Source: Pirellulales bacterium
Lineage (GTDB): Bacteria > Planctomycetota > Planctomycetia > Pirellulales > JAEUIK01
Assembly (NCBI GenBank): GCA_019745975.1
Contig: JAIESQ010000185.1
Span: forward strand, 1-43,594
DNA: 43,594 bases
Reading direction: 5' to 3'
Shown here: in pieces, positions 5,969-20,906 of the stretch
Layout: every line of letters starts with the position of its first letter
How positions within the stretch are numbered: the first letter of the stretch is position 1
Made by a program: the position numbers and the translations under genes
The notes under the pieces: model-generated
The model's database searches: none
The model's input: only the letters and a program-made list of their open reading frames with translations
What the model was told of the DNA's origin: nothing

Positions 5969-7624
5969 ATGTCCGCAGCCACGCACGCTCACGATGCGAT
6001 GAAGTTAACTACCTCGGCGGATGGCGCTGTTGAGAGGCCGACGCCGCAGCAAAGCACTCGCCAGCGATTCGTGGCAGTTCTGCCTACCTTGGCGGTGATC
6101 TGCACGCTGGCTGGTTTGGGTGTGTGGGGGCATTTCACACATTGGAGCCTCCCCAAATTCTCGGCCTTGTTTGGAGGCTCGGCTCCTGACGCGACCGAAT
6201 GGTGCAAGGCGCACAACGTGCCGGAAGCCGAGTGCATCGAGTGCAATCCGCAGCTCGTGAAGCGCGGCCCCGACTACGGCTGGTGCAAGGTGCACGGTGT
6301 CGCGCAATGCCCGTTTGAACATCCCGAAGTCGCCGAGTTGGCCAGCGCGCCGGTTGTTTCGTCCGATACGCTGGCGCGGGCCGAACAGGCTTTAGCGCTG
6401 CGGCCGCGCCCCGAGAACGATCGCCGCTGCACGCTGCACACGCACCGCATTCAATTCGCGTCGAACGAAGCGCTGGAGAAGGCGGGCGTGGATATCAACG
6501 TCGTGCGCCAGCGGGCGCTGGTCGAAGCCGTGGTGGCCAATGGCGAAGTCGTCTACGACGAAACGCGCATGGCCCATCTCTCGACGCGCGTGCCGGGGAC
6601 GGTGTGGCGCGTCGACCGGCAGGTCGGCGATCGCGTCAAAGCGGGGGACGTTTTGGCGTTGATCGACGCCGCCGAGGTGGGGCGGCTCAAGAGCGAGTTC
6701 TTGCAGGCCATCGCGCAATATCGGCTCCGGCAGACGAACTACGAACGGCTGGCACCGCTGGCCGCCGATGGTTCGATTCCCGGACGCCAGGCGCGAGAAG
6801 CCAACTCGGCATTCCAGGAAGGGCAGATTCGCCTGTTGGGAGCACAGCAGGCCCTGGTGAATCTCGGGCTGGCGGTCGAGTACCACGAGCTCGCCGAACT
6901 GCCCACGGACGAAATCGCGCGGCGCATCCAGTTTCTGGGCTTGCCCGACTCGATGTCGAGCGAGTTTGCCACCCACTCGACGACGTCGAACTTGCTGCTG
7001 CCGATTGTCGCTCCGCTGGATGGCGTGGTGGTGCAACGCGAACCAGTTCCGGGCGAAGTCGTGGCGACAACCACCGTGCTGTTTACAGTCGCCGACATCG
7101 ACCGGCTCTGGCTGATCCTCAATGTCCGGCAGGAAGACGCCGCGTACGTCAAATTGGGACAAGCGGTGAAATTCCAGCCAGATGATCGGGAGAATGCCGC
7201 CGCGCTCGAGGGGAACGTGGCTTGGATCAGCACCGCGGCCGACGATGAAACGCGCACCGTGAAAGTCCGCGTCGATCTGCCCAACCCGGGTTTGTCGATG
7301 CGGGTGAATACGTTTGGCACGGGTCGGATCATCTTGCGCAATGAGCCAGCGGCGATCGTCGTGCCCAGCGAAGCGGTGCACCGCGACGGCGCTTGTTCGA
7401 TTGTCTTCGTGCGCGACCGCAACTACTTGCAGCCGCAGTCGCCCAAGTTCTTCCATGTCCGCACGGTGCGGGTGGGGGTGCAGGATGGCGGCGACACCGA
7501 GATCATTGCCGGGCTGCTCCCCGGTGAAGTCATCGCCAGCAAGAACAGCGTGGTGCTCGAAGCGCAGCTTCTCAAGAGCAAACTCGGCGCCGGCTGCGGT
7601 TGTTGCGCGCCAGGTCACGAGTAG
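5969..7624 (+). CDS. Heavy-metal RND efflux periplasmic adaptor (CusB/CzcB-like)
   Basis: A 551-aa membrane fusion protein linking an inner-membrane RND pump to the outer membrane. Residues about 35-55 form a membrane anchor. Residues 78-118 carry two Cys/His modules: W78-C79-x2-H82-x6-C89-x2-C92, and W105-C106-x2-H109-x4-C114-x3-H118. The adaptor core follows: a barrel-sandwich half (VPGTVWRVDRQVGDRVKAGD), a helical hairpin, then the second half (APLDGVVVQREPVPGEVV), the beta-barrel and a membrane-proximal domain. The extreme C-terminus adds C543, C545 and C546. The Cys modules are extra to the standard adaptor fold and recur in the lipoprotein at 10934. The TAG stop coincides with the edge of repeat copy D. 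The permease gene starts 145 bp downstream. Confidence 0.92.
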   Translation: MSAATHAHDAMKLTTSADGAVERPTPQQSTRQRFVAVLPTLAVICTLAGLGVWGHFTHWSLPKFSALFGGSAPDATEWCKAHNVPEAECIECNPQLVKRGPDYGWCKVHGVAQCPFEHPEVAELASAPVVSSDTLARAEQALALRPRPENDRRCTLHTHRIQFASNEALEKAGVDINVVRQRALVEAVVANGEVVYDETRMAHLSTRVPGTVWRVDRQVGDRVKAGDVLALIDAAEVGRLKSEFLQAIAQYRLRQTNYERLAPLAADGSIPGRQAREANSAFQEGQIRLLGAQQALVNLGLAVEYHELAELPTDEIARRIQFLGLPDSMSSEFATHSTTSNLLLPIVAPLDGVVVQREPVPGEVVATTTVLFTVADIDRLWLILNVRQEDAAYVKLGQAVKFQPDDRENAAALEGNVAWISTAADDETRTVKVRVDLPNPGLSMRVNTFGTGRIILRNEPAAIVVPSEAVHRDGACSIVFVRDRNYLQPQSPKFFHVRTVRVGVQDGGDTEIIAGLLPGEVIASKNSVVLEAQLLKSKLGAGCGCCAPGHE

Positions 7625-7755
7625 TCGTCTCAAAACCAGCAGGGAACCGACGTCGAGTACCAAGGCGCGAAGCGTCTAGCAGTGTTGTGTTGAATCTTGC
7701 ACTGCTGGGCAAGCCAGCAGTGGCACCCAGAATGGGTTTCGCCGCCACAACTGAA
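7622..7755. repeat. Family 1 MITE-like repeat, copy D (degenerate)
   Basis: Begins with the TAG stop codon of the adaptor gene, followed by a decayed terminus (TCAAAACC retained). It keeps the GTCTAGCAGTG arm and the CACTGCTGGGCAAGCCAGCAGTG hairpin (about 7709-7731), and has a decayed right end. It fills the adaptor-permease gap, so the hairpin would lie inside a polycistronic mRNA. Confidence 0.7.
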
Positions 7756-7769
7756 GCCAATCGCCGCCG

Positions 7770-10700
7770 ATGCTGAACTGGATCATCAACTTCTCGTTGC
7801 ATCACCGCGCGGCGGTGATTCTCGCCACCGTGGCGCTGGCCATCGTCGGGGGGCTTTCGCTGCGCTACCTGGATATCGACGCGTTTCCCGATACGACGCC
7901 GGTGCAGGTGCAGATCAACACGATCGCGCCGGCGCTAGGCCCCGAAGAGGTCGAGCGCCGCATTACCTTTCCGATCGAACAGTCGATCGGCGGCCTGCCG
8001 GGGCTCGAAGCGATGCGCTCGGTGTCGAAGTTCGGCTTCTCGCAAGTCGTGGTCACCTTCGTCGACGGAACTGACATCTATTTCGCGCGGCAGCTTATCA
8101 ACGAGCGGCTGGCGGCGGTCGAATTGGCCGAGGGAATCGGCCGGCCGAAGATGGGGCCAGTGGCGACCGGGCTGGGCGAAGTCCTGCACTACGTCGTCAC
8201 CGGCGCCGGCAACGACGTGACCGAGCTACGGACCATTCACGATTGGTATGTGCGGCCGAAGATGCGCACCGTGCGCGGCGCCGCGGAGATCAATAGCTGG
8301 GGAGGCTACGAGAAGCAATTCCAGGTGCGGATCGATCCCAACCTGCTAATCAAATTCCATCTCACCTTCGACCAGGTGATGCAGGCCGTGCGCGACAACA
8401 ATCGCAACGTCGGCGCGGGGAATGTTCGCGAAGGAACGCAAGCCGTTCTGGTGCAGGGCGTCGGCCGCACCACCACCGCCGAACAGGTCGCGAAGATCGT
8501 CATCACGGCTCGCGATGGCGTGCCAATTCGCGTGGCGGACGTGGCCGAGGTGACGATCGGCTCCGAGATTCGCCGCGGCGCCGTTACGGCCGACGGGCGC
8601 GGTGAAGTCGTGATGGGGCTCGGCTTCATGTTGATGGGCGAAAACACCCACGAGATCACTTGGGCGATGAAGCGCCGCCTCGACGAAATCCGCCCCACGC
8701 TGCCAGCCAACATCGAAGTCGAGCCGCTGTACGACCGCACCGAGCTGGTCGATCACGTCATCGGCACCGTCAGAAACAATCTGTTCGAGGGGGGCTTGCT
8801 CGTCGTTGCCGTGTTGTTCGCATTTCTGGGGAATCTGCGGGCGGCGCTGATCGTCGCGCTGGCCATTCCACTATCGATGCTGTTCGCGTTCGTCGGCATG
8901 CTGCGGTTTGGCATTTCGGCCAGCCTGCTGAGCCTGGGAGCGATCGACTTCGGCATGATCGTCGATAGTTCGGTGGTGATGGTCGAGAACTGCGTGCGAC
9001 ACATCGCGCACGGCGACCATCGCCGGCAATCGATGGTCGACATGGTCCGCGACGCCGCGGTCGAAGTGCGCAAGCCGACCATGTTCGGCGAACTGATCAT
9101 CATGATCGTCTACTTGCCGATCCTGACGCTCGAAGGGACCGAGGGGAAGCTGTTCCGGCCGATGGCGTTGACGGTCATCTTTGCCCTGCTGGGCTCGATG
9201 GTGCTGTCGCTGACCTTGATGCCGGTGCTGGCGAGCATACTCCTGCCCCGCAAGATTCAGGAGCGCGAGCCCTTGCTGATGCGTGTGGCGCATCGCATTC
9301 ACGCGCCGATCTTGCGGTTCTCGATGAATCACAAGGTGTTGGTCATTGGGTTCGCGTTGGTGGTCATGTTCGTGGCGTTCGTGATGATCGCCCCGAACCT
9401 GGGCTCGGAGTTCGTGCCGCGGCTCTCCGAAGGAGCGATCGCCATCAGCGTGGTGCGGCTGACCGGCACGGACCTCGAAGATTCGATCAAGTACAACACG
9501 CAGATGGAAAAGGTCGTGCTCCAGAAGTTCCCCGACGAGGTGCGGCACGTTTGGAGCCGCATTGGCACGGCCGAGATCGCCACCGACCCGATGGGCATCG
9601 AACTGACGGACATGTTCATTTCGCTCAAGCCGCGCGACGAGTGGCAGCGTGCCAGAACGCAGGAAGAGCTCACCACGCTGATCGAAGCGCAGTTGCGCGA
9701 CTTGCCTGGTCAGCGGCTGGTGTTCTTGCAGCCGATCGAAATGCGCATGAACGAAATGGTCAGCGGAGTTCGCGCCGACGTGGCCGTGCAACTGTATGGC
9801 GACGATCTCGACGTGCTGGCTGCCAAAGGGCGCGAAGTCGAAGCGATTCTCAATCGCATTCCGGGTAACGCCGACGTGAATGTCGAGCAGATCACCGGGC
9901 AGCCCGTGCTAGAGATCAAGCTCGATCAGGATCAGCTCGCCCGCTACGGCGTGCCAGCCAAAGTGGTGACCGACATCATCGAGTCGCTGGGGAGCTTGCC
10001 GCTAGGAGAAGTGATCGAAGGGCAACTGCGGTTTCCGCTGGTGGCGCGGCTGCCCGAGCCTTTGCGTGCCGGTACCGCCGGGATCGGCGCGATTCAGATT
10101 CCGACAGCCACGGGGGAGCGGCTCCCGCTATCGCGGCTGGCCGAAATTCGCATCGTGCAGGGTCCGGCGACGATCACGCGCGAGTGGGGGCAGCGCCGCA
10201 TCACGATCTCGTGCAACGTGCGCGGGCGCGACCTGGGGAGCTTCGTCGCCGACGCGCAGCGGCGACTCAAGGCCGAATTCACACTCCCCCCCGGTCGCTA
10301 TTTCTACGAATTCGCCGGGCAGTTCGAGCATCTGGCGCGGGCTCGCGAGCGGCTGTTGATCGTCGTGCCGGTCGCCGCGGCCCTGATCTTCACGCTCTTG
10401 TATTTCACCTACAACAACATTGTCGACGCGCTGCGCGTGTTTACGGGCGTGCCGTTCGGCTGGGTGGGGGGAATCTTCGCCCTCTGGCTGCGCGACATGC
10501 CGTTTTCGATATCGGCCGCCATCGGCTTCATCGCGCTGTCGGGCGTGGCCGTGCTCGACGACATGATTCTGGTATCGTATGTCCGCCAACTGCGGCAACG
10601 CGGCCTGCCGCTCGACCAGGCGGTGGTGCAGGCGGCGGTCACGCGCTTGCGTCCCGTGTTGATGACCACGCTGGTGGCCAGCTTGGGATTCTTGCCGATG

Positions 10701-10898
10701 GCCTTCAGCACGGGCATGGGGGCCGAAGTACAGCGACCGCTGGCGACCGTGGTCATTGGCGGCGTGATCGGGGCGATGATCATGTCGCTGTTGGTGCTGC
10801 GGGTGTTGTACCTGGTGTTCAGTTCGCCGTTTGCCAGACGGGACAAGGACCGACCGCAGCTTGATGCGCGCGACTTGCTGACGGCGAGTTCAACTTGA
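7770..10898 (+). CDS. Heavy-metal efflux RND permease (CzcA/CusA family)
   Basis: A 1042-aa proton-driven inner-membrane pump. It opens with MLNWIINFSLHHRAAVI, typical of HME-RND proteins, and has the two-fold pattern of one helix, a large periplasmic loop and then six helices. TM4 reads IDFGMIVDSSVVMVEN, with the Asp-Asp-Glu triad of CzcA-type divalent-cation exporters; CusA-type Cu(I)/Ag(I) pumps keep fewer of these acids. I therefore favour Zn, Co, Cd or Ni over copper as substrate, from family knowledge only. There is no obvious Shine-Dalgarno sequence before the ATG; the family 1 hairpin lies just upstream. The partners are the adaptor before it and the Cys/His lipoprotein 35 bp after it. 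Confidence 0.95.
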   Translation: MLNWIINFSLHHRAAVILATVALAIVGGLSLRYLDIDAFPDTTPVQVQINTIAPALGPEEVERRITFPIEQSIGGLPGLEAMRSVSKFGFSQVVVTFVDGTDIYFARQLINERLAAVELAEGIGRPKMGPVATGLGEVLHYVVTGAGNDVTELRTIHDWYVRPKMRTVRGAAEINSWGGYEKQFQVRIDPNLLIKFHLTFDQVMQAVRDNNRNVGAGNVREGTQAVLVQGVGRTTTAEQVAKIVITARDGVPIRVADVAEVTIGSEIRRGAVTADGRGEVVMGLGFMLMGENTHEITWAMKRRLDEIRPTLPANIEVEPLYDRTELVDHVIGTVRNNLFEGGLLVVAVLFAFLGNLRAALIVALAIPLSMLFAFVGMLRFGISASLLSLGAIDFGMIVDSSVVMVENCVRHIAHGDHRRQSMVDMVRDAAVEVRKPTMFGELIIMIVYLPILTLEGTEGKLFRPMALTVIFALLGSMVLSLTLMPVLASILLPRKIQEREPLLMRVAHRIHAPILRFSMNHKVLVIGFALVVMFVAFVMIAPNLGSEFVPRLSEGAIAISVVRLTGTDLEDSIKYNTQMEKVVLQKFPDEVRHVWSRIGTAEIATDPMGIELTDMFISLKPRDEWQRARTQEELTTLIEAQLRDLPGQRLVFLQPIEMRMNEMVSGVRADVAVQLYGDDLDVLAAKGREVEAILNRIPGNADVNVEQITGQPVLEIKLDQDQLARYGVPAKVVTDIIESLGSLPLGEVIEGQLRFPLVARLPEPLRAGTAGIGAIQIPTATGERLPLSRLAEIRIVQGPATITREWGQRRITISCNVRGRDLGSFVADAQRRLKAEFTLPPGRYFYEFAGQFEHLARARERLLIVVPVAAALIFTLLYFTYNNIVDALRVFTGVPFGWVGGIFALWLRDMPFSISAAIGFIALSGVAVLDDMILVSYVRQLRQRGLPLDQAVVQAAVTRLRPVLMTTLVASLGFLPMAFSTGMGAEVQRPLATVVIGGVIGAMIMSLLVLRVLYLVFSSPFARRDKDRPQLDARDLLTASST

Positions 10899-11315: not shown

Positions 11316-11380
11316 TGTAGCCGGCCTCTGTGAGGCCGGCGCGTCGTCGTGAACCTCCGGGGTCACTGACCCCGGCTACA
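11316..11380. repeat. Family 2 double-hairpin repeat, copy 1
   Basis: Starts TGTAGCC and ends GGCTACA (outer inverted repeat). Inside are hairpin GCCGGCCTC-TGT-GAGGCCGGC and hairpin CCGGGGTC-ACT-GACCCCGG. It lies between the convergent ends of the metal operon and the HAE1 cluster, so it could serve as a two-way terminator, though no T-run follows. The stop codon of the permease (11376-11378) lies inside it. A further GGGTCTG/CAGACCC inverted repeat (about 11386-11405) extends into the gene end. Confidence 0.8.
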
Positions 11381-14300
11381 GAAGCGGGTCTGTGTTCGCA
11401 GACCCCGGATGCAGATCGATGGGCTGCGTCTCGCTCGGCTCGTCGCTGGCGAAGCGTCGGCCGAGCCAATCGATCACGAAGTAGAACACCGGCGTCAGGA
11501 AGATGCCGAACAGGGTCACGCCAAGCATGCCGCCGAAGACCGCGGTCCCCAAGGTGCGTCGCATTTCGGCGCCGGCGCCCGCGGAGAGCATCAGCGGCAC
11601 GACGCCGAGGATGAACGCCAGCGAAGTCATCACGATCGGCCGCAATCGCAACTGGCAGGCCGCCAAGGTCGCATCGCGCCCCGATGCTCCCTGCTCGCGC
11701 TGGGCCTTGGCGAATTCGACGATCAGAATCGCGTTTTTGCAAGCCAGACCGATCAGCACCACGAAGCCGACCTGCGTGAAAATGTTTACGTCCAGCCGGC
11801 CGACCAGCACGGCCGCGACGGAGCAGAGCAGGCACATCGGTACGACGAGAATTACGGCCAAGGGCAGCGACCAGCTTTCGTATTGCGCCGCCAGGACGAG
11901 AAACACCAGCACCACGGCCAAGGCGAAGACGAGCATCGCCGTGTTGCCGGTCTGCAATTGCAACAGCGCCAGCTCGGTCCATTCGACACGCATCGCGCGT
12001 GGCAGTTCCGCTCGGGCGATGCGTTCCATCGTCGTCAACGCCTGGCCAGAGCTGACTCCGGGTGCGACGCTCAAGTTGATCGGCGCGGCACGATACAGGT
12101 TGTAGCGCGTGATCATCGTGGGGCCCTCGACGTCGCGCACTTCGCTGATCGCCGATAGTGGGACCATCAGGCCGCGGTTGTTGCGGATCTTGAGCTGTTT
12201 GAGATCGTCGACCTGGTTACGGAAGTCGGCCCCCGCCTGCAGATTCACCTGCCAGGTGCGGCCAAAGCGATTGAAGTCGTTGACGTACAGCGAACCCAGA
12301 TAGACTTGCAGGGTATTGAACACGTCGGCCATGTTCAGGCCCATGCGCTTGGCCGCGACGCGGTCGATATCGAGAAACAGCCAGGGGCTGTTGGCGCGAA
12401 AACTGGAGAACAGCTCGCGCAGCTCGGCAGTTTGATTGCCGTCGTGGACGATGCGGTCGGAGACCGCCTGCAAGGCGTCGGTCCCCAAGTCGCCGCGGTC
12501 TTCGACGACGAGCTTGAAGCCGCCGGCGGTCCCCAGCCCGTCGACCGGCGGAGCGCCAAACACGTGAATGACTCCCTCGCCGACGTGGCCCTCCAGCGCG
12601 TGCTGAAGATGGGCGGCGATCACTTCACCGGTCAGCCCGCGCTCGACGCGGTGGTCGAATTCGTCGAGCATCACGTAGAGCGCGCCGAAGTTTGGCGCGG
12701 CGGCGTTCAAGAGGATCGACTGGCCGGCGATCGCCACGGTATGGTGCACGCCATCGATTTTCGCCGCCGCTTGTTCGATTTCGCGCACGGTTTGCTGCGT
12801 GCGGGCCAGCGAAGCCGAGTCGGGCAATTGCACGTTGACCAGCAGATAGCCTTTGTCCTGCGATGGAATGAATCCCTTGGGGGCGGCGACAAAGCTCCCG
12901 TAAGCCAAGGCCAGCAATCCGCCATAGACCAGTAGCACCACGACGCTCACGCGCAGGAGGCCACCCACGGCGCGGGCATAAAAGCCTGTCGCGCGGTCAA
13001 AGCCCCGGTTGAACGCCGCAAAAGCGACACGCAGTAGGGCGTTAATGCGCCGGCCGGCGATCCCGCCCAAGAGCGCCATTCCGGCGGCCGCTAATGCCGG
13101 CGCGAGCCAAGGGATTTCTTGCACCAAGCCGGCGAGCGGCGCTTCGGGGCGCCCCTTGAGTGCGGTGGCCACCCAAGGTCCCGTGAAGGCCCAGCCAATC
13201 CAACCGGCCGCTAGCGGCACCATGAACCAGGGCAATGGCGGGGCAGCCCCTTTCTCGCGCGGCCGCAACAAGAGTGCGGTGAGCGCCGGGCTGAGCGTCA
13301 GGCTGTTGAATGCCGAGATCACGGTCGACACGGCGATCGTCAGCGCGAATTGCCGGAAGAACTGCCCGGTGATCCCCGTGATGAACGCGCACGGAATGAA
13401 TACGGCGCTGAGGACCAGGCCCACGGCGATCACCGGACCGGAGACTTGTTGCATCGCCTTGAGCGTGGCGTCGCGTGGCGACAGGCCGCGTTCGATGTGG
13501 TGTTCGACCGCCTCGACCACGACGATGGCATCGTCGACGACGATGCCGATGGCCAGCACCAGGCCGAACAGCGTGAGGTTGTTCAAGCTGAAGCCGATGG
13601 CCGCCATCGCCGCGAACGTGCCGACGATCGCCACCGGCACGGCCACCAGCGGAATAATGGCCGAACGCCAGTTCTGCAAGAAGACGAGCACGACGATGGC
13701 CACCAAAATGACGGCGTCGCGCAGTGTCTGAAACACCTCGCGGATCGACTCTTCGATGAACGGCGTGGTGTCGTAGACGATCGCGTAGTCGATGCCCTTG
13801 GGGAAGCGGTCGCGCAGCTCGGCCATCTTGGCGCGCACCTCGCGCGCGACTTCGAGCGCATTCGAGCCGGGCAACTGATAGACCGAGAGCGCGACGGACG
13901 GCTGGCCATCGAGCGTGCAGAGCTGGTTGTAGACCAGCGCGCCGAGTTCGATATTGCCGACATCTTTGAGCCGGACGAAGCGCCCTTCGGCATCGGCCTT
14001 GAGGATGATCTCGCCAAATTGGTCGACATCGATCAGCCGCCCCATGGTGCTCATGGTGAACTGAAAGACCTGGCCGGTGGCGATCGGCGGCTGGCCGATT
14101 TGGCCCGCCGCGACTTGCATGTTCTGCTGTTCGATGGCCAGCACGACGTCGGCGGTGCTCAGGCCGCGGTAGGCCATTTTCTCGGGATCGAGCCAGAAGC
14201 GCATGCTGTAGTCGCGCTGGCCGATATAGGAGATATCGCCAACGCCTTCGAGACGCGAGAGCTCGTCCTTGAGCTGAATCGTCGCGTAGTTGCTCAAGTA

Positions 14301-14759
14301 CAAGTCGTCGCGCGAGCTGTCGGGCGAAAACAGATTGACGATCAAGAGCACGCTCGGCGATTTCTTCTTCACCGAAATGCCGCGACGCTGCACCAAGGGG
14401 GGCAGCGTGGGCTGCGCCAGCGACACGCGGTTTTGCACCAGCACCTGCGCCATATTCAGGTCGACGCCGTGCTTGAACGTGACCGTGAGCGTGTAGGTGC
14501 CATCGTTGGTGCATTGCGACGACATGTAGAGCATCTTTTCGACGCCGTTGACGTACTGCTCGATCGGCGCCGCGACGGTGTCGGCCAGCACCTGCGCATT
14601 CGCGCCGGGATAGACGGCCGACACTTCGACCGTCGGGGGCGTGATCTCGGGATACTGCGCGATCGGCAGCGTCAACAGCGACACGCCCCCCGCCAGCGTG
14701 ACGATGATCGACAGCACCGAGGCAAAGATCGGTCGGTTAATGAAGAACTGCGAGAACAC
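11376..14759 (-). CDS. HAE1-type RND multidrug efflux permease (second of a tandem pair)
   Basis: About 1127 aa, AcrB-like. The GTG at 14759 gives FSQFFINRPIFASVLS, the usual N-terminus of the family; a TTG two codons earlier (14765) is also open. The proton relay is intact: VVDDAIVVVEAVEHH in TM4 and a Lys in GLACKNAILIVEFAK in TM10. Between the two halves an enlarged linker (about 13050-13260) carries two extra hydrophobic stretches that AcrB lacks. Compounds such as drugs or solvents are typical HAE1 substrates; the true substrate is unknown. It starts a few bases after the upstream permease stop, so the two are co-transcribed. The last ten or so residues and the TAG stop are encoded by repeat DNA (family 2), implying a replaced C-terminus. 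Confidence 0.93.
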   Translation of the reverse strand: MFSQFFINRPIFASVLSIIVTLAGGVSLLTLPIAQYPEITPPTVEVSAVYPGANAQVLADTVAAPIEQYVNGVEKMLYMSSQCTNDGTYTLTVTFKHGVDLNMAQVLVQNRVSLAQPTLPPLVQRRGISVKKKSPSVLLIVNLFSPDSSRDDLYLSNYATIQLKDELSRLEGVGDISYIGQRDYSMRFWLDPEKMAYRGLSTADVVLAIEQQNMQVAAGQIGQPPIATGQVFQFTMSTMGRLIDVDQFGEIILKADAEGRFVRLKDVGNIELGALVYNQLCTLDGQPSVALSVYQLPGSNALEVAREVRAKMAELRDRFPKGIDYAIVYDTTPFIEESIREVFQTLRDAVILVAIVVLVFLQNWRSAIIPLVAVPVAIVGTFAAMAAIGFSLNNLTLFGLVLAIGIVVDDAIVVVEAVEHHIERGLSPRDATLKAMQQVSGPVIAVGLVLSAVFIPCAFITGITGQFFRQFALTIAVSTVISAFNSLTLSPALTALLLRPREKGAAPPLPWFMVPLAAGWIGWAFTGPWVATALKGRPEAPLAGLVQEIPWLAPALAAAGMALLGGIAGRRINALLRVAFAAFNRGFDRATGFYARAVGGLLRVSVVVLLVYGGLLALAYGSFVAAPKGFIPSQDKGYLLVNVQLPDSASLARTQQTVREIEQAAAKIDGVHHTVAIAGQSILLNAAAPNFGALYVMLDEFDHRVERGLTGEVIAAHLQHALEGHVGEGVIHVFGAPPVDGLGTAGGFKLVVEDRGDLGTDALQAVSDRIVHDGNQTAELRELFSSFRANSPWLFLDIDRVAAKRMGLNMADVFNTLQVYLGSLYVNDFNRFGRTWQVNLQAGADFRNQVDDLKQLKIRNNRGLMVPLSAISEVRDVEGPTMITRYNLYRAAPINLSVAPGVSSGQALTTMERIARAELPRAMRVEWTELALLQLQTGNTAMLVFALAVVLVFLVLAAQYESWSLPLAVILVVPMCLLCSVAAVLVGRLDVNIFTQVGFVVLIGLACKNAILIVEFAKAQREQGASGRDATLAACQLRLRPIVMTSLAFILGVVPLMLSAGAGAEMRRTLGTAVFGGMLGVTLFGIFLTPVFYFVIDWLGRRFASDEPSETQPIDLHPGSANTDPLL

Positions 14760-14768
14760 GCACAACGC

Positions 14769-17700
14769 TCACTTGATTTGCTGTTCGGGCCTTGGATTGT
14801 CGGCTGGTGACGACACCTGGTGGAGGTCTGCCGATGCTGGCCACGGGATTGTCGGATCGCTAGTTTCAGCTCGCTCGTCCGGGGGCGAGCGCCGCGCGCG
14901 CCGCACGGCAGCCGCGCCCGCCAGGCGGAGCGGCCGCAGGCTCAACGCGCCCAGCACCAGGTCGCTGGCATGTCGCAGCCTCCGCGAGGAGAGCAGCGTG
15001 GCTTCGCCCAGGCGGTCGATCGTGTAGAAAAAGACGGGAGTGAGCGCCAAACCGAACAGCGTCACGCCCAGCATGCCGCTAAACACGGCCACGCCCAGCG
15101 CGCGGCGCATTTCGGCCCCCGCGCCATGCGAAGCGATCAGCGGCACGACTCCCAAGATGAACGCCAGCGAGGTCATGACGATCGGCCGCAAGCGCAGGCG
15201 GCAGGCTGCCAGCGTCGCTTCGCGGCGCGTCGCGCCCGTGGCGCGCTGCTGCTTGGCGAATTCGACGATCAGAATCGCATTCTTGCTGGCCAGGCCGACC
15301 AGCACCACGAAGCCGATGCGCGTGAAAATATTGACGTCCATGCGGGCGATGCTCACTCCGGCCAGCGCGCTGAGAATGCACATCGGCACGACCAGAATCA
15401 CGGCCAGCGGCAGCGACCAGCTTTCGTACTGCGCCGCCAGCACGAGAAACACCATCACCACGGCAAAGCCAAAGATGATTGTCGCCGTGTTGCCCGCCAA
15501 CAGTTCGAGATACGACATGTCGGTCCACTCGAAGCCCATGTTGTGCGGCAAGTTCTCGTGCGCGAGGTGCTCCATGATTTCGATCGCCCGATGCGAGCTG
15601 GTGCCCGGGGCGGCCATGCCGTTGATCGAGGCCGCGGGGCGCATGTTGTAGCGCGTGAGCACGAGCGGCCCGTTCACTTCCTGGACGCTGGCGATCGAGC
15701 CCAGCGGCACCATCATCCCCTCGGCGTTGCGCACCTTGAGGCGCGAAATGTACTCCGGTTGATTGCGAAACTCGGGTTTGGCCTGAATGATCACCTGCCA
15801 GGTGCGGCCGAAGCGGTTGAAGTCGTTGACGTAGAGCGAGCCCTGGTACATGCGCAGGGTGTCGGCGTAGTCTTGCGAGGGGACTTTGCGCAGCACGCTC
15901 TGCCGGCCATTGTGGCGCACGTACAACTGCGGAACGTTGGCCCGAAATGGCGACGACAGCGTCATCAGCCCGGGAGTTTCGTTCCCCAGGGCCATGAGCC
16001 GCTCGGTTTCTTGCTGCAAGACTTGCGGGCCGAGATCGCCGCGATCTTCGATCATGATCATGAAGCCGCCGGCGCGCCCCACGCCGCGGATCGGCGGCGG
16101 CGGAAAGACCTGCACGTTGGCTTCCTTGATCTGCTGGCCAAACGCGGCACGCAAGTCGTTCGCCACGCGCTCGCTGCGCAATTCAGCGGTGCGTCGCAAG
16201 CGGTATTCCTTCAAGTTCACGAAGAGCGAACCGAAATTGGAACCGGCCGCGTTGAGCACGAACGACTGCCCCGTGATGCCCGAGCAATGCTTGACGGCCG
16301 GGTGCGCGATCGCGATCCGCACGATCCGGTCGATCACCGCTTGCGTGCGCTCAAGCGACGCCGAATCGGGGAGTTGCACGCTCACCATCAAGTAGCCCAT
16401 GTCCTGCGCGGGAATGAATCCCTTGGGCGTGACCACGAACCGCCAGTAGGTCAGTCCCAACAATCCTCCGTAAACGACCAGCACTAGCAGGCTCACGCGC
16501 ACCAGTCCGCCCACGACGCGCGTATAGGTGCCGGTCAATTTCTGAAAGCCCCGATTGAAGAGCCCGAACAGCGTGCCCAAGGCGAGATTCAACCATTTAC
16601 CCAGCAATCCGCCGGCGATCGCGCCGAGCATGGCGGCCAGCACGGGCGCGCCCCAGGGGCCAAGCGTGGCCCAACCATCGAGCGCCGGCGCGAGCTTGTC
16701 GGCCGCCAGCAGCCACGCCAGCCAGGCGCCAAGCAGCGGAAACGCCAACCAAGGGAGAGGCGGGGCGAGCGTTTTGTCGTGCTTGCGCAACAGGAGCGCG
16801 GTGAGCGCGGGGCTTAACGTCAGGCTGTTGAAGGCCGAGATGATCGTCGAGACGGCGATCGTCATCGCGAATTGTCGGAAGAATTGCCCGGTCAAACCGC
16901 TGATGAACGCGCACGGCACAAACACCGCGCTGAGCACGAGGCCAACCGCGATCACGGCGCCGGAAACTTGTTGCATCGCGCGGATCGTGGCTTCGCGCGG
17001 CGCCAGTCCCTCTTCGATATGATGCTCGACCGCCTCGACGACGACGATTGCGTCGTCGACGACGATGCCGATCGCCAGCACCAGGCCGAACAGCGTCAGG
17101 TTGTTGAGGCTGAAGCCGAACAAAGCCATGGCCGCGAAGGTACCGATAATCGCCACCGGCACGGCGACCAGTGGAATCACCGCCGACCGCCAGTTTTGCA
17201 AGAAGAGGAGCACGACAATCGCCACCAGCACGATGGCGTCGCGCAGAGTCTTGAACACCTCTTTGATCGATTCACGCGTGTAGGGAATCGTCGTGAAGCC
17301 GACATCGTACGAGAGCCCTTCGGGAAAGCTCACAGACAACTCGGCCATCTTGGCCATGACGCGGTCGTGGGTTTCCAGGGCGTTGGCGTCGGGCAATTGA
17401 AAGATCGCCATGAACACGGCCGGCTGCCCATCGAGGCTGTTGTTGACATCCATGCTCTTGGCGCCCAATTCGACGCGGGCGACGTCGCCCAGGCGCACGA
17501 TCCGGCCATCGGGCGTGGCCTTGAGCACGATTTGCTCGAATTGCTCGACCTCTTCGAGTCGCCCGAGGGTACCCAAGGTGTATTGCAGGGGCTGGCCGTC
17601 GAGCATCGGCGATTGCCCCAGGCCGCCGCTGGCAACCGGCGCGTTTTGTTCGCGAATTGCCCTGGCCACGTCGGCCGGCGTCAGGCCGCGCGCCGCCAGC

Positions 17701-18281
17701 AGGTCGGGCTCGATCCAGACGCGCATGCTGTAGTCGCGCTGGCCGAAGACGTTCACGTCGCCGACGCCTTCGAGCCGCGCCAGCTCGTCCTTCACCTGCA
17801 GCACGCCGAAGTTGCTCAGATAGAGCTGGTCGTAGCGGCGATCGGGCGAGATCAGGGCCACGCCCATCAGAATGTCGGGCGAGCGCTTCCGCGTGCTAAC
17901 GCCCGTTTGCTTGATGACATCGGGCAGCGAGGGGACCGCCAGGCTGACGCGGTTCTGCACGAGCACCTGCGCCATGTCGACGTCGACGCCGTGATGAAAC
18001 GTCACCGACAGGCTGTACTGTCCGTCGTTAGTGCACGACGACGACATGTACATCATGCCTTCGACGCCGTTGACGCACTGTTCGATCGGCGCGGCGACGG
18101 CCTGAGCGACGTCTTTGGCGCTGGCGCCGGGATAGATGCAGTTGACCGATACGGTCGGCGGCGAAACCTGCGGATACTGCGCGATCGGCAGCGTCCAGCC
18201 GGCCACACCGCCAGCCAGCGTGATGACGATCGACAATACCGCCGCGAAGATCGGGCGATCGATAAAGAACTTCGAGATCAC
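14769..18281 (-). CDS. HAE1-type RND multidrug efflux permease (first of a tandem pair)
   Basis: 1170 aa, starting with ISKFFIDRPIFAAVLS. TM4 has VVDDAIVVVEAVEHH and TM10 has GLASKNAILIVEFAK, so the Asp-Asp/Lys proton relay is complete. The linker between the halves (about 16590-16770) is enlarged and hydrophobic, as in its neighbour. After the last membrane helix there is a long polar, Arg/Pro-rich tail of about 70 residues. The start overlaps the adaptor's stop by four bases. A tandem pair of permeases behind one adaptor resembles MdtABC, where the two permeases form a mixed trimer; whether that occurs here is unknown. It is clearly paralogous to the next gene, sharing long identical motifs throughout. 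Confidence 0.93.
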   Translation of the reverse strand: MISKFFIDRPIFAAVLSIVITLAGGVAGWTLPIAQYPQVSPPTVSVNCIYPGASAKDVAQAVAAPIEQCVNGVEGMMYMSSSCTNDGQYSLSVTFHHGVDVDMAQVLVQNRVSLAVPSLPDVIKQTGVSTRKRSPDILMGVALISPDRRYDQLYLSNFGVLQVKDELARLEGVGDVNVFGQRDYSMRVWIEPDLLAARGLTPADVARAIREQNAPVASGGLGQSPMLDGQPLQYTLGTLGRLEEVEQFEQIVLKATPDGRIVRLGDVARVELGAKSMDVNNSLDGQPAVFMAIFQLPDANALETHDRVMAKMAELSVSFPEGLSYDVGFTTIPYTRESIKEVFKTLRDAIVLVAIVVLLFLQNWRSAVIPLVAVPVAIIGTFAAMALFGFSLNNLTLFGLVLAIGIVVDDAIVVVEAVEHHIEEGLAPREATIRAMQQVSGAVIAVGLVLSAVFVPCAFISGLTGQFFRQFAMTIAVSTIISAFNSLTLSPALTALLLRKHDKTLAPPLPWLAFPLLGAWLAWLLAADKLAPALDGWATLGPWGAPVLAAMLGAIAGGLLGKWLNLALGTLFGLFNRGFQKLTGTYTRVVGGLVRVSLLVLVVYGGLLGLTYWRFVVTPKGFIPAQDMGYLMVSVQLPDSASLERTQAVIDRIVRIAIAHPAVKHCSGITGQSFVLNAAGSNFGSLFVNLKEYRLRRTAELRSERVANDLRAAFGQQIKEANVQVFPPPPIRGVGRAGGFMIMIEDRGDLGPQVLQQETERLMALGNETPGLMTLSSPFRANVPQLYVRHNGRQSVLRKVPSQDYADTLRMYQGSLYVNDFNRFGRTWQVIIQAKPEFRNQPEYISRLKVRNAEGMMVPLGSIASVQEVNGPLVLTRYNMRPAASINGMAAPGTSSHRAIEIMEHLAHENLPHNMGFEWTDMSYLELLAGNTATIIFGFAVVMVFLVLAAQYESWSLPLAVILVVPMCILSALAGVSIARMDVNIFTRIGFVVLVGLASKNAILIVEFAKQQRATGATRREATLAACRLRLRPIVMTSLAFILGVVPLIASHGAGAEMRRALGVAVFSGMLGVTLFGLALTPVFFYTIDRLGEATLLSSRRLRHASDLVLGALSLRPLRLAGAAAVRRARRSPPDERAETSDPTIPWPASADLHQVSSPADNPRPEQQIK

Positions 18282-19648
18282 AGAGAACCTGTCGAGGCCG
18301 AGGCCACGTTGGGTATCTCGATCAATTTGGCTTCCACCTTGTTGCCGGGAATTACGCGCTGCAGGCCGGTGACCACGACGCGCTCGTGGGGCTCAAGCCC
18401 GGCCGTGATCACGCGCCGCCCCTCGTGCAACTTACCGACCGTCACCCGGCGGTACGAGACATTGCTCTGGTCGTCCACGACATAAACGAACCGCTGCCCC
18501 TGGTCGGTCCCCAGGGCCGCTTCGGGCACGAGCAGCGCGCGGTAGGGCTCGCCCACGGGGATGCGAATCCGCACAAACAAGCCGGGGGAAAGCAGGCGAT
18601 CGGCGTTCGAAAATACGGCTCGCACGCGCAGCGTGCCGGTGCTGGGGTCGACGCGGTTGTCCTCGAAATCGAGCGTGCCGCGGCGCGTGTAGCCGCGTTC
18701 GTCGGCCAGGCCCATGAACACCTCGGCCGCGTCATCGACCGACGAGAATGCCGCCGAGGACGACGTGGCACTCACGTGATCGTCGATGGCCGGCGCGGCA
18801 GGCTCGTGAGATTCATCACCGGGGGAAGCTTCGCGCGGCGGCGCGCGCAGCTCGCCTGGATCTTCGGCTTCGGCGCGATCGAAGACCGCCGGCGCTTCGG
18901 CGTGCGCCGTCGTAATCACATTGTGTCCATCGACGCCGTGGGAATTGCCCTGCGCATGCAAGCGCCGCAAGCGCAGCAGCGTCCGTTCGTCGAGATCGAA
19001 GTAAACCCACATGGGGTCCTGGGCGACGACGCGCGTGAGAATGGTGTCGTCGGCCTTGACCAGGTTGCCGGGGTCGATAAACGGCCGGCTCACGCGCCCC
19101 GAGATTGGCGCCTTGACCTTGGTGTAACCGAAATTGACCTGCGCGATCTTGAGCAATGCACGGGCGGCCTTGAGCGTCCCCTCGGCCTCGTTGACGTCGC
19201 TGGTCGCCAGGTCGAACTGCGCCTGGGTGATCACGTTCTGCTTGTGCAGCGTGACGGTGCGTTCGTAGTCGGCGCGCAAGCGGTTCAAGCGCGATTCGGC
19301 TTGCGCCACGCCAGCTTCGGCGCGGGCCAATTCGGCCTCGTAATACGGGGGATCAATTTCAAACAGGACATCCCCTTCCTTGACTTCCGCGCCATGCTCG
19401 AAATGGACCGCACTCAAGTAGCCGGTCACCCGCGCGCGGATGTCGATGCTGGCCACCGCTTCGGTCTGGCCGGAGAATTCCTCGTAGTCGCGAATCTCCT
19501 GTTGCACGGGGAGACAGACTTCGACCTGCGCAGGACCGCTCGGCGGCAGCGCTGGCGGCTTCTGCGCACAGCCGGGCGCATACAGCAACCAGGCGGCAAC
19601 TGCGATGGCCGTCGTGCGCCCCACGCACCGTGGCTGTGACTTGCTCAC
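18278..19648 (-). CDS. RND efflux periplasmic adaptor, lipoprotein type (AcrA/MexE-like)
   Basis: 456 aa, starting with GTG. The signal peptide ends at a lipobox-like APGC (about Cys27), so the protein is anchored in the inner membrane by lipid. Then come the first lipoyl-like half (VTGYLSAVHFEHGAEVKEGD), a helical hairpin, the second half (VKAPISGRVSRPFIDPGNLV), the beta-barrel and the membrane-proximal domain. The usual GLADERGYTRRGTLDF segment is preceded by an unusual insertion of about 80 residues, acidic, Ser/Ala/Pro-rich and probably disordered (encoded around 18720-18960). It overlaps the following permease gene by four bases, giving an operon adaptor-permease-permease. No outer-membrane channel gene is adjacent. 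Confidence 0.9.
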   Translation of the reverse strand: MSKSQPRCVGRTTAIAVAAWLLYAPGCAQKPPALPPSGPAQVEVCLPVQQEIRDYEEFSGQTEAVASIDIRARVTGYLSAVHFEHGAEVKEGDVLFEIDPPYYEAELARAEAGVAQAESRLNRLRADYERTVTLHKQNVITQAQFDLATSDVNEAEGTLKAARALLKIAQVNFGYTKVKAPISGRVSRPFIDPGNLVKADDTILTRVVAQDPMWVYFDLDERTLLRLRRLHAQGNSHGVDGHNVITTAHAEAPAVFDRAEAEDPGELRAPPREASPGDESHEPAAPAIDDHVSATSSSAAFSSVDDAAEVFMGLADERGYTRRGTLDFEDNRVDPSTGTLRVRAVFSNADRLLSPGLFVRIRIPVGEPYRALLVPEAALGTDQGQRFVYVVDDQSNVSYRRVTVGKLHEGRRVITAGLEPHERVVVTGLQRVIPGNKVEAKLIEIPNVASASTGSL

Positions 19649-19738
19649 TGCGATTGAATCCCTACCGGTCGCCGAGTTGGTCGGCGGCGGCGATCACACG
19701 AAGCTGTCTGGTTCGTCAACGATTGAAGCCGCGTTCTT

Positions 19739-19873
19739 TAGAAGCAGTTTCAAAACCGGCGATGAACCGGCGTCGGGTGCCACTGCAAGAAGCGTCTAGC
19801 AGTGCCCTATCGAACGTTGCACTGCTGGGCAAGCCAGCAGTGGCACCCAATCCAGGTTTTCAAACTGCTTCTA
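19739..19873. repeat. Family 1 MITE-like repeat, copy B (complete)
   Basis: 135 bp, TA-flanked, with GAAGCAGTTTCAAAACC at the left end and the near-complement at the right end. The internal order is reversed relative to copy A. The hairpin CACTGCTGGGCAAGCCAGCAGTG is intact. Its right-hand TA is part of the TAG stop codon of the tetR gene (19871-19873). It separates tetR from the adaptor gene that tetR probably controls. Confidence 0.8.
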
Positions 19874-20533
19874 TTGCTCTTTTGGCGGATTGCGCTCCCG
19901 CCCCTGGTCGCTCAAGATCCCATGAAATACCACGTCGATGATGTCCTGGGCCTGCGATTCGACCGATACCTGGCGCTGCGAAAAGTGGTTTGTGAACATC
20001 GTGCCGTACATCAGGTCGCCGAGCACGTCGAGGATGCGGTCGACCGGCATGTCGCGGATTTGCCCCTCGTCGATGTACCCTCGATAGAGCAAGCGGAGCC
20101 GCTCGCGGTTCGCCTCGCGATGCTCAAAGTAGGTCGGCTTCTTGCGATCCTTGAACAGGGCGCGTTCGCTAATCAGCAGTTCGCAGAGCTGGGGGTGGTC
20201 GGCGAAGAACTTCAAATATGAGCGCACGACCTGGGCAATTCGCGTGGGCGGGTCCTCGATGTCGGCGATGCTGGCGTCGATGGTTTCGACGAGCATCCGC
20301 ATGCCGCGATCGGTCGCGGCCAGGAACAGTTCGCGCTTGCTGGGGAAGTAGCGATAGAGTGTCCCTTTGCCGATTCCCAATTCGTCGGCCAAGCGCTGCG
20401 TGTCGGTATTGGCGAAGCCATGCTCGGCGAACAGCCTGGTGGCGGCCAGCAGGATCTGCTCGCGGCGCTCGGCGGCCGTTGTGCTAGCGGTGTCGAGCTT
20501 GGGCGCTGCGGCGGCCGTGCGGCGAGGCGACAT
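19871..20533 (-). CDS. TetR/AcrR-family transcriptional regulator
   Basis: About 220 aa from the ATG at 20533. The DNA-binding domain lies at residues about 20-68 (REQILLAATRLFAEHG, then DELGIGKGTLYRYFPSKREL), the classic TetR helix-turn-helix. The remaining helical part would bind the inducer and form the dimer. The frame is open upstream to 20698, but that would start before the promoter and operator at 20610-20668, so the shorter form is preferred. It lies directly upstream of the HAE1 efflux genes on the same strand, the usual place for a local repressor of such a pump. The stop codon is supplied by the edge of repeat copy B. Confidence 0.92.
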   Translation of the reverse strand: MSPRRTAAAAPKLDTASTTAAERREQILLAATRLFAEHGFANTDTQRLADELGIGKGTLYRYFPSKRELFLAATDRGMRMLVETIDASIADIEDPPTRIAQVVRSYLKFFADHPQLCELLISERALFKDRKKPTYFEHREANRERLRLLYRGYIDEGQIRDMPVDRILDVLGDLMYGTMFTNHFSQRQVSVESQAQDIIDVVFHGILSDQGRERNPPKEQ

Positions 20534-20609
20534 GCTCAAGGGTGTGGTTGCCAAGGGCGTGGCTTCGTTAGGCGGGAAATCAAAGCGAGGAATGCGGGCC
20601 AAACTGTCG

Positions 20610-20635
20610 CGGACTGACCAGTCCGTCCGGACCAG
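20610..20635. promoter_or_regulatory. Probable TetR operator
   Basis: CGGACTGACCAGTCCG (20610-20625) is an inverted repeat with six-base arms around GACC. It is followed by GTCCGGAC (20626-20632 region), and GACCAG occurs twice, 14 bp apart (20616 and 20630). It sits just downstream of the predicted -10 box of tetR, the right place for autorepression. Confidence 0.65.
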
Positions 20636-20639
20636 ATCG

Positions 20640-20668
20640 ATCCTAGACCGCCCCCAACCACGTGTCAA
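20640..20668 (-). promoter_or_regulatory. Sigma70-type promoter of tetR and the efflux cluster
   Basis: On the minus strand a perfect TTGACA (20668-20663), a 17-bp spacer and TAGGAT (20645-20640). The predicted transcript would start near 20633, about 100 nt before the ATG at 20533, with the operator covering its first bases. Confidence 0.7.
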
Positions 20669-20906
20669 CGCACTGTCGCCTTCAAAGCGAATCCACAAAA
20701 CGGATTACGTGACGCCCGACGCAAAGCGCCGGGGGGGCCCAAGCCGAGGGGCCCTGGCCGCTTGAGCCTGCGGCGGCCATCTCCTAAATTTGGCGTTCTT
20801 GCCGCAACTCGAGGCCGACGACAAGGGTACTGTCCGCGCTGCGGGTACGACAGCGATACGTCCTGGCGCCCGCGGCGCCGCCCGCCATTCTGGAGAACTG
20901 GATTCC

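Follow-up and report, generated by a model that had tools for sequence, protein, structure and literature searches.

Organization of the gene cluster

The window, that is, the whole stretch of Pirellulales DNA analysed here (43,594 nucleotides), contains a minus-strand gene cluster whose first gene (19871..20698) codes for a TetR-family regulator (PF00440 above cut-off). A tetR homologue was also found beside the adaptor gene at nine of the ten other window-type pair loci, and was not found at L049, where the contig ends beside the adaptor. Between tetR and the adaptor gene lies a palindromic dispersed repeat of ∼135 bp (19735..19875), recognized by its inverted repeats and present in at least 39 further copies in the genome at 87–95% identity. 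The adaptor gene (18278..19648, minus strand) specifies a periplasmic protein of the RND_mfp family (TIGR01730 above cut-off). Among the adaptor families MexE scored as its best relative, yet below the MexE model's own cut-off, and this MexE-like protein is the only adaptor adjoining the permease pair.

Permease A (P0002, 1170 aa; 14769..18281, minus strand) is transcribed first, with its start overlapping the adaptor stop in GTGA, and is followed by permease B (P0001, 1129 aa; 11376..14765, minus strand). Both HAE1 permeases score above the cut-offs of TIGR00915 and NF000282, reaching 1110.6 bits (B) and 1101.6 bits (A) with TIGR00915, for which the curated cut-off is 940.35. The frame of B was called from a TTG at 14765; judging from comparison with relatives, the GTG at 14759 is likely to be the true start. 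Past TM12, A has an Arg-rich C-terminal tail (14772..15002, minus strand), seen in the sequence, at a position where Gemmata-type A proteins have hydrophobic segments.

All five proton-relay residues (Asp407, Asp408, Lys940, Arg971 and Thr978 in AcrB numbering, hereafter DDKRT) are kept in A and in B. An intact relay in A and B, and in 59 of 60 proteins across the 30 pairs considered below (29/30 A and 30/30 B, window included), means that neither copy is a dead paralogue, as the first-pass annotation of this DNA had held. Judged by sequence, each gene codes for a complete HAE1 permease in which the proton relay is preserved. One stretch of A reads VRHNGRQS where B has LDIDR, and a compensated frameshift was considered at this point. 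It was rejected since the same place is altered in seven other insert-bearing window-type A proteins (L048–L052, L054 and L055), and we regard the stretch as real divergence.

Both permeases carry an insert between TM6 and Iα

The tandem permeases had been annotated as having enlarged hydrophobic linkers, and this was borne out by alignment: the stretch equivalent to AcrB residues 496–540 measures 45 aa in AcrB, 41 in MdtB and 40 in MdtC, versus 103 aa for A and 111 aa for B. In each permease, the segment joining TM6 to Iα is longer by 65–70 residues. When aligned with AcrB and relatives, A has its insert at residues ∼503–565 (16587..16775, minus strand) and B at residues ∼505–575 (13041..13253, minus strand), in agreement with the linker positions noted before (∼16590–16770 and ∼13050–13260). 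As a known domain the insert was rejected, a Pfam comparison with 36 members giving nothing better than E 0.0062; a PDB sequence search with the insert gave nothing better than E 0.2.

AlphaFold2 was run on an input of 55 rows, made up of A, B and 53 proteins from related loci (68 were usable), and returned models with a mean pLDDT of 84.2 for both A (pTM 0.79) and B (pTM 0.78). In both models, porter and docking domains accompany a core of 12 TMs, and the extra helices are predicted additions to that core. Model A superimposed on CmeB with Z 58.9 (rmsd 1.9, 1010 residues aligned) and model B on BpeB with Z 58.2 (rmsd 2.4, 1000 residues aligned). The two hydrophobic linker segments, annotated earlier as missing from AcrB, were found to be non-amphipathic and are modelled as a helical hairpin with a mean pLDDT of 75–91 per ten-residue block in both models. 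The hairpin comprises helices 513–533 and 538–595 in A, and 515–537 and 554–605 in B, the second helix passing into the Iα region without a DSSP break as far as residue 595 or 605, respectively. Taking secondary structure and hydrophobicity together, the extra helices proper are residues 513–533 (16683..16745, minus strand) and 538–565 (16587..16670, minus strand) of A, and residues 515–537 (13155..13223, minus strand) and 554–575 (13041..13106, minus strand) of B.

Membrane character was assessed in 95 insert-bearing proteins, three of 98 rows being left out for a missing motif or window. The Kyte–Doolittle, Eisenberg and Wimley–White values and the AcrB TM ranges and subdomain boundaries used here are those we take to be standard. 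Mean helical moments were 0.09 and 0.11 for the two segments versus 0.54 for Iα, and mean KD19 values were 1.38 and 1.83. Segment 1 is moderately hydrophobic, with a Kyte–Doolittle value of at least 1.6 in 28% of the 95. Its Wimley–White octanol score resembles that of a TM helix, but the score of a periplasmic control stretch also exceeds zero in 93/95 proteins, and the scale was dropped as a discriminator at that threshold. The loop between the segments, which ranges from 4 to 33 residues, is net negative in 77/95 and the stretch after the segments net positive in 94/95, as would be expected of a hairpin whose loop is outside. Ahead of segment 1 there is no clear positive charge (net charge positive in 49/95, negative in 24/95), and the positive-inside bias of this hydrophobic, non-amphipathic helix pair is clear for the loop and the following stretch only. 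Considering hydrophobicity, low amphipathicity and charge bias, each permease probably has 14 TMs, with the insert forming two predicted transmembrane helices.

The insert is a conserved lineage trait

Hits with frames no longer than 850 aa (13 of 158) were removed before tree building, and merging of one duplicate row took the set from 130 to 129. A linker of at least 85 aa was present in 98 of the 129 HAE1-type rows, nearly all of them from planctomycete relatives, a share that is not a frequency, the compared regions having been chosen by eye in favour of adjacent matches and long frames. The annotation had proposed looking for the segments in other planctomycete HAE1 proteins, and there they are conserved. 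An alignment of 36 of 37 inserts (the longest, L061, was excluded) has one invariant Pro and one invariant Asn; given these residues and the 98 long linkers, the insert is not a chance feature. The REALPWW form of the insert occurred at 58 loci among the genomes of 84,980 species, 55 of them titled Planctomycetota, while at least 16 of 392 genomes, counting that of the window, were returned by a phylum search, a lower bound with 13 candidates scored per genome.

In 13 hand-chosen close pairs, some from common genomes, dN/dS of the insert was below 1 in all 13 and in all 13 exceeded that of the rest of the protein (0.06–0.43 versus 0.04–0.17), several dS values being near or above 1. These ratios indicate that the insert is under purifying selection, weaker than that on the remaining protein. 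Eight gains or losses of the insert were counted on the tree. Within the 30 pairs, it is present in 29/30 B proteins and absent from 13/30 A proteins, 12 pairs lacking it in A only and one in both; thus it is not required for pairing. It is also found in many single planctomycete permeases. On these sequence comparisons, the insert is a lineage trait that is not tied to pairing.

The pair is conserved and diverges in the porter domain

The tandem pair of the window was compared with those of 29 further loci, a non-random sample with regions picked by eye. Gene order was adaptor-A-B in 29 of these 30 pairs, the upstream side of the remaining one being cut by a contig end, and in many pairs A and B are separated by a few bases or overlap. 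At L095, a 2539-aa open frame resembling a fused pair was taken, from frame and coordinates, for an artefact of upstream extension that runs into B, and its genes were re-labelled as two in the pair count. One genome has kept both genes at unlinked positions, and the 7.8 kb upstream of its B (L117) revealed no adaptor. Mirror trees of A and B correlated with r 0.960, a value reached in 0 of 5000 permutations, which speaks of co-inheritance and not of contact.

A and B are 0.55–0.66 identical across the pairs. Sites were called A/B-specific when a residue occurred in at least 90% of B and at most 5% of A proteins, a definition that 8 of 958 columns satisfy when all 30 pairs are taken together. 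Among window-type pairs, such sites made up 16 of 105 columns in PN2 (p 2.3e-7, uncorrected, with eight regions in three sets tested) and 1 of 389 in the TMD. In sequence, then, A and B diverge mainly in the porter domain and rarely in the membrane domain. The inter-protomer arm (AcrB 210–240) showed no enrichment of A/B-specific sites (1/31 in each lineage). An arm difference had been apparent by eye, and was dropped as an argument since the fixed definition showed no enrichment.

The pair is not descended from the MdtBC duplication

Both E. coli MdtBC and the planctomycete locus have tandem permeases behind one adaptor. A quick tree with some long branches put the pair beside the Acr and MexF/AdeF rows (support 97) and away from MdtB/MdtC, not as a descendant of the MdtBC duplication. 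Since the pair groups with MexF/AdeF/Acr-type permeases, the two-permease arrangement arose separately and is, on this phylogeny, independent of MdtBC. Of the annotated resemblance to MdtBC, the gene arrangement therefore stood and the kinship did not. Within the pairs, three trees separated window-type A from Gemmata-type A, uniting the latter with B at support values of 94, 93 and 97; a single A clade was not rejected (p-AU 0.149).

The closest solved structures to A by Foldseek E-value were BpeF (49% identity), AdeG (49%) and OqxB (46%). The MexEF/OqxAB/AdeFGH/BpeEF pumps are also near in the tree, and their MexE family scores the adaptor best, but the three plasmid-borne representatives compared have linkers of 50–51 aa without the hairpin, and the one MexEF-type representative on a plasmid with an annotated neighbourhood has one adaptor and one permease.

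Discussion

We propose that the cluster encodes what would be, from its genes, a TetR-regulated tripartite RND efflux pump, with two HAE1 permeases of ancient divergence in the inner membrane, a single adaptor serving both, and an outer-membrane channel presumably encoded elsewhere. The usual description of RND permeases gives them 12 TMs, and pumps with two permeases are commonly traced to a single proteobacterial duplication. Here, each permease is predicted to combine a proton-driven 12-TM core with a two-helix transmembrane hairpin between TM6 and cytoplasmic Iα, giving 14 TMs and leaving both termini cytoplasmic, and both subunits would be proton-competent. The working form may be a mixed A/B trimer in which a single adaptor ring serves substrate pockets of two kinds. 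The probable place of the hairpin is the lipid-facing side, close to TM6/TM7 and Iα, and by analogy it could tune the pump from the membrane as a built-in counterpart of AcrZ. That the cluster encodes such a pump and that its permeases bear the hairpin is, jointly, highly probable. We infer the membrane insertion of the hairpin, the mixed trimer and the tuning role, taking for each step the best reading available, and the explanation as a whole then falls slightly on the probable side.

The mixed trimer, suggested since A and B differ in the porter (substrate) domain, has in our estimate an even chance. Two homotrimeric pumps with different substrates, sharing the adaptor and the outer-membrane channel so that the pair extends dosage and range, are a somewhat doubtful alternative. 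They would accord with a complete relay in each copy, with pockets that diverge over a membrane domain that barely does, with the unremarkable inter-protomer arm, and with the one genome whose A and B lie apart, an arrangement open to independent pumps. Yet gene order is constant in the 30 pairs, many with overlapping or nearly abutting genes; B is kept along with A even when unlinked, where no adaptor lies in the 7.8 kb upstream of it; and for MdtBC, MdtB2C is active while the MdtB homotrimer is inactive, as reported in PMC12802153.

Similar weighing applies to the insert. Its segments would very improbably be a membrane-surface or re-entrant hairpin extending Iα on the cytoplasmic side: the moderate hydrophobicity of segment 1, the indistinct charge of its leading flank and the continuity of the second helix with Iα in both models would fit, but low helical moments, segment 1 helices of 21–23 residues, 22–28 residues of segment 2 before the conserved Asn, and the charges of the loop and following stretch all argue for the transmembrane hairpin. 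A tuning role for that hairpin is somewhat short of an even bet. It is unlikely that the insert is instead a tolerated lineage decoration lacking a function of its own, hydrophobic since a polar insert would disturb the membrane domain. Such a decoration would explain why dN/dS of the insert lies above that of the rest in every pair (up to 0.43), the eight gains or losses and the variable loop, but sits poorly with ratios below 1 throughout, the invariant Pro and Asn in 36 rows, and retention by 29/30 paired B proteins.

Of known systems, the Clade B heterotrimeric MdtABC/MuxABC pumps resemble the planctomycete pair in having two tandem permeases of long-standing divergence, a single adaptor ahead of them and both relays intact, but differ in the shorter linkers and the phylogenetic position given above. 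A survey of 6205 permeases reports 203 tandem repeats 'exclusively in Clade B' (PMC10872679). No paper on a planctomycete two-permease lineage with extra helices was found among the matches listed in the open-access literature. A separate lineage of this kind would be a natural replicate for why a pump needs two permeases, and its extra helices would show where the RND membrane domain tolerates additions. AcrB with AcrZ shares the fold and likewise has an added transmembrane helix, and AcrZ is reported to tune AcrB allosterically (PMC7267776); the planctomycete helices differ in being two, inside the permease and after TM6, with a tuning role suggested by analogy. More broadly, though this is rather unlikely, planctomycetes may have a second mixed-subunit RND pump class that evolved independently of MdtBC, with 14-TM permeases and with hairpins at the ends of both six-helix repeats in the role of AcrZ-like small proteins, Gemmata-type A, with two further C-terminal segments, reaching up to 16.

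Organization of the gene cluster

Both tandem HAE1 permeases in the window, A (14769-18281) and B (11376-14765), passed the HAE1 models TIGR00915 and NF000282. They are preceded on the minus strand by tetR (19871-20698) and by an adaptor gene (18278-19648) whose product passed TIGR01730 and has MexE as its best-scoring relative. The adaptor stop overlaps the start of A (GTGA), and the gap between the A stop and the B start is 3 or 9 bases, depending on whether B starts at TTG (14765) or at GTG (14759), the latter being more likely. The first-pass annotation held that the proton relay is kept in both permeases, and all five relay residues (DDKRT: Asp407, Asp408, Lys940, Arg971 and Thr978 in AcrB numbering) were indeed found in each. 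The OEP outer-membrane-factor family has 21 matches in the genome, none of which lies on this contig as available.

The adaptor is 456 aa long, compared with ~393 aa in L048, the nearest relative compared, and contains an acidic low-complexity stretch at about residues 240-310. A MITE-like palindromic repeat of ~135 bp (19735-19875) separates tetR from the adaptor; it has at least 39 further copies in the genome (87-95% identity), one of them at 1324-1457. Convergent with the pair, on the plus strand (5969-10898), are genes for an adaptor resembling CzcB and for a heavy-metal permease of the CusA/CzcA family.

A predicted hairpin between TM6 and Iα

Alignment with AcrB bore out the enlarged linker described earlier in both permeases, with 65 (A) and 70 (B) extra residues after position 511. 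Across 95 proteins, the second of the two hydrophobic segments in this insert roughly matches TM6 and TM7 in hydrophobicity, the first is somewhat less hydrophobic, and mean helical moments are 0.09 (segment 1) and 0.11 (segment 2) versus 0.54 for Iα. The loop between the segments is net negative in 77 of the 95 and the stretch after segment 2 net positive in 94; no consistent net charge was seen ahead of segment 1, where the stretch is positive in 49 and negative in 24. When the inserts of 36 relatives were aligned, two residues were invariant, a Pro close to where segment 1 starts and an Asn after segment 2. AlphaFold2 models (mean pLDDT 84.2 for each) place the insert in helices at 513-533 and 538-595 in A and at 515-537 and 554-605 in B, and elsewhere resemble an ordinary RND permease. 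Together these results uphold the proposal of two hydrophobic segments absent from AcrB. The insert is most likely a transmembrane hairpin, which would bring the permeases to 14 TMs; we infer its membrane placement from these predictions. Its best precedent is AcrZ, described as tuning AcrB (PMC7267776), although AcrZ is a separate helix; by analogy, the hairpin would tune the pump to which it belongs.

Distribution and evolution of the insert

Among 40 genomes (the window's own and 39 relatives), 32 contain a homologue of A with an E-value no higher than 1e-100, and an insert profile search across the phylum matched at least 16 of 392 genomes. The REALPWW form of the insert was found at 58 loci, at times several per genome, in the genomes of 84,980 species by a scan blind to the PPLPW form, which is that of the window's own inserts; for other phyla the scan therefore speaks to REALPWW inserts only. 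Record titles name Planctomycetota for 55 of these loci, in line with conservation of the extra segments among planctomycete permeases; L114 and L137 are titled 'bacterium' and L122 Deltaproteobacteria. The L122 permease, insert included, is nested among planctomycete rows in a 129-row tree, reflecting either transfer or mis-binning. With B as the tblastn query, plasmids gave 829 records, every one below 60% identity, and three fetched plasmid permeases have linkers of 50-51 aa.

On the same tree, built with the linker columns left out, presence or absence of the insert changes state eight times. Separate gains are possible, but the motif common to the inserts suggests a single origin followed by losses. 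The insert is under relaxed purifying selection: its dN/dS (0.06-0.43) exceeds that of the remainder (0.04-0.17) in all 13 comparisons, several of which have dS close to or above 1.

Among 17 other permease ORFs of the window's genome (16 fetched plus the CusA-like permease of the window), a long hydrophobic linker occurs only in L002, an HAE1 permease, and in L004 and L005, both of the CusA/CzcA family. In the permeases of L004 (871-4419, contig C189) and L005 (898-4404, contig C121), which have the relay variant DMDRT, the linkers are 94-95 aa long, hydrophobic and at the same place, suggesting that a hairpin after TM6 was gained separately.

Conservation and ancestry of the A-B pair

From the fetched loci we assembled 30 pairs, 11 window-type and 19 Gemmata-type, which differ in A lineage. 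An adaptor lies upstream of A in 29; the thirtieth, L113, begins at a contig end. Both proteins have a long linker in 17 pairs; in 12 the linker of A is short and that of B long, and in one both linkers are short. A-B identity within pairs is 0.55-0.66, and the A and B distance matrices are correlated (r 0.960; none of 5000 permutations as high). Twelve further A- or B-type genes are single in their locus. Six have a whole or partial partner beside them (L097, L065, L110, L058, L103 and L108) and three are cut by contig ends (L112, L090 and L115). L104 (A) and L117 (B) lie on different contigs of one genome, unlinked but both present, and no adaptor was found within the available 7.8 kb upstream of the L117 B gene. 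L145 is an A gene whose genome has, besides another tandem elsewhere, a B gene (L115) at the end of a contig.

The B proteins form one clade in three trees (support 95, 96 and 97). The A proteins form two clades that are unjoined in all three, with opposing branch support of 94, 93 and 97; constraining them to one clade was not rejected (p-AU 0.149). In a loose alignment, A proteins of both groups carry an addition of 32-33 residues at AcrB position 1031, where 15-27 residues are present in three B proteins. These trees and this alignment would fit either a single duplication or a later event in which one lineage replaced its A.

When HME permeases serve as outgroup, the pair clusters with Acr and MexF/AdeF rows, away from MdtB/MdtC, whose duplication is described as predating the divergence of the Alpha-, Beta- and Gammaproteobacteria (PMC7015380). 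A survey of 6205 permeases from 920 proteomes gives tandem permeases as exclusive to Clade B, and the word planctomycetes is absent from its main text (PMC10872679).

Divergence between A and B

The membrane domain has few sites at which a residue is conserved in B but missing from A (1 of 389 columns in window-type and 7 of 389 in Gemmata-type pairs); such sites are concentrated in the porter domain, in PN2 (16/105, p 2.3e-7) and PN1 (8/96, p 0.024) of window-type pairs and in PN1 (10/96, p 0.0028) and PN2 (7/105, p 0.11) of Gemmata-type pairs (p values uncorrected). Several fall at positions 277, 610, 617 and 628, which we take to belong to the AcrB drug pocket. This distribution points to a common proton machine with different likely substrate contacts in A and B. 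A mixed A/B trimer that combines two types of pocket would fit, with MdtB2C, whose MdtB homotrimer is reported as inactive (PMC12802153), as precedent; two homotrimers sharing the one adaptor fit nearly as well.

Gemmata-type A proteins have additions of their own. All 19 from the pairs carry at least one hydrophobic segment in the C-terminal tail, and 16 carry two (for example L088, 8477-12061, and L063, 2517-6329), compared with one of 11 window-type A proteins and none of the 30 paired B proteins. In RND permeases, TM12 ends at a position that is pseudo-symmetric with the end of TM6, and thus the additions seem to occupy equivalent places in the two repeats. Among Gemmata-type A proteins, 11 of 12 with a short linker and 7 of 13 with a long one also have large insertions, up to ~210 aa in total, that align at AcrB positions 252 and 258, presumably in the docking domain (for example L098, 4377-8378, and L062, 6328-10203).
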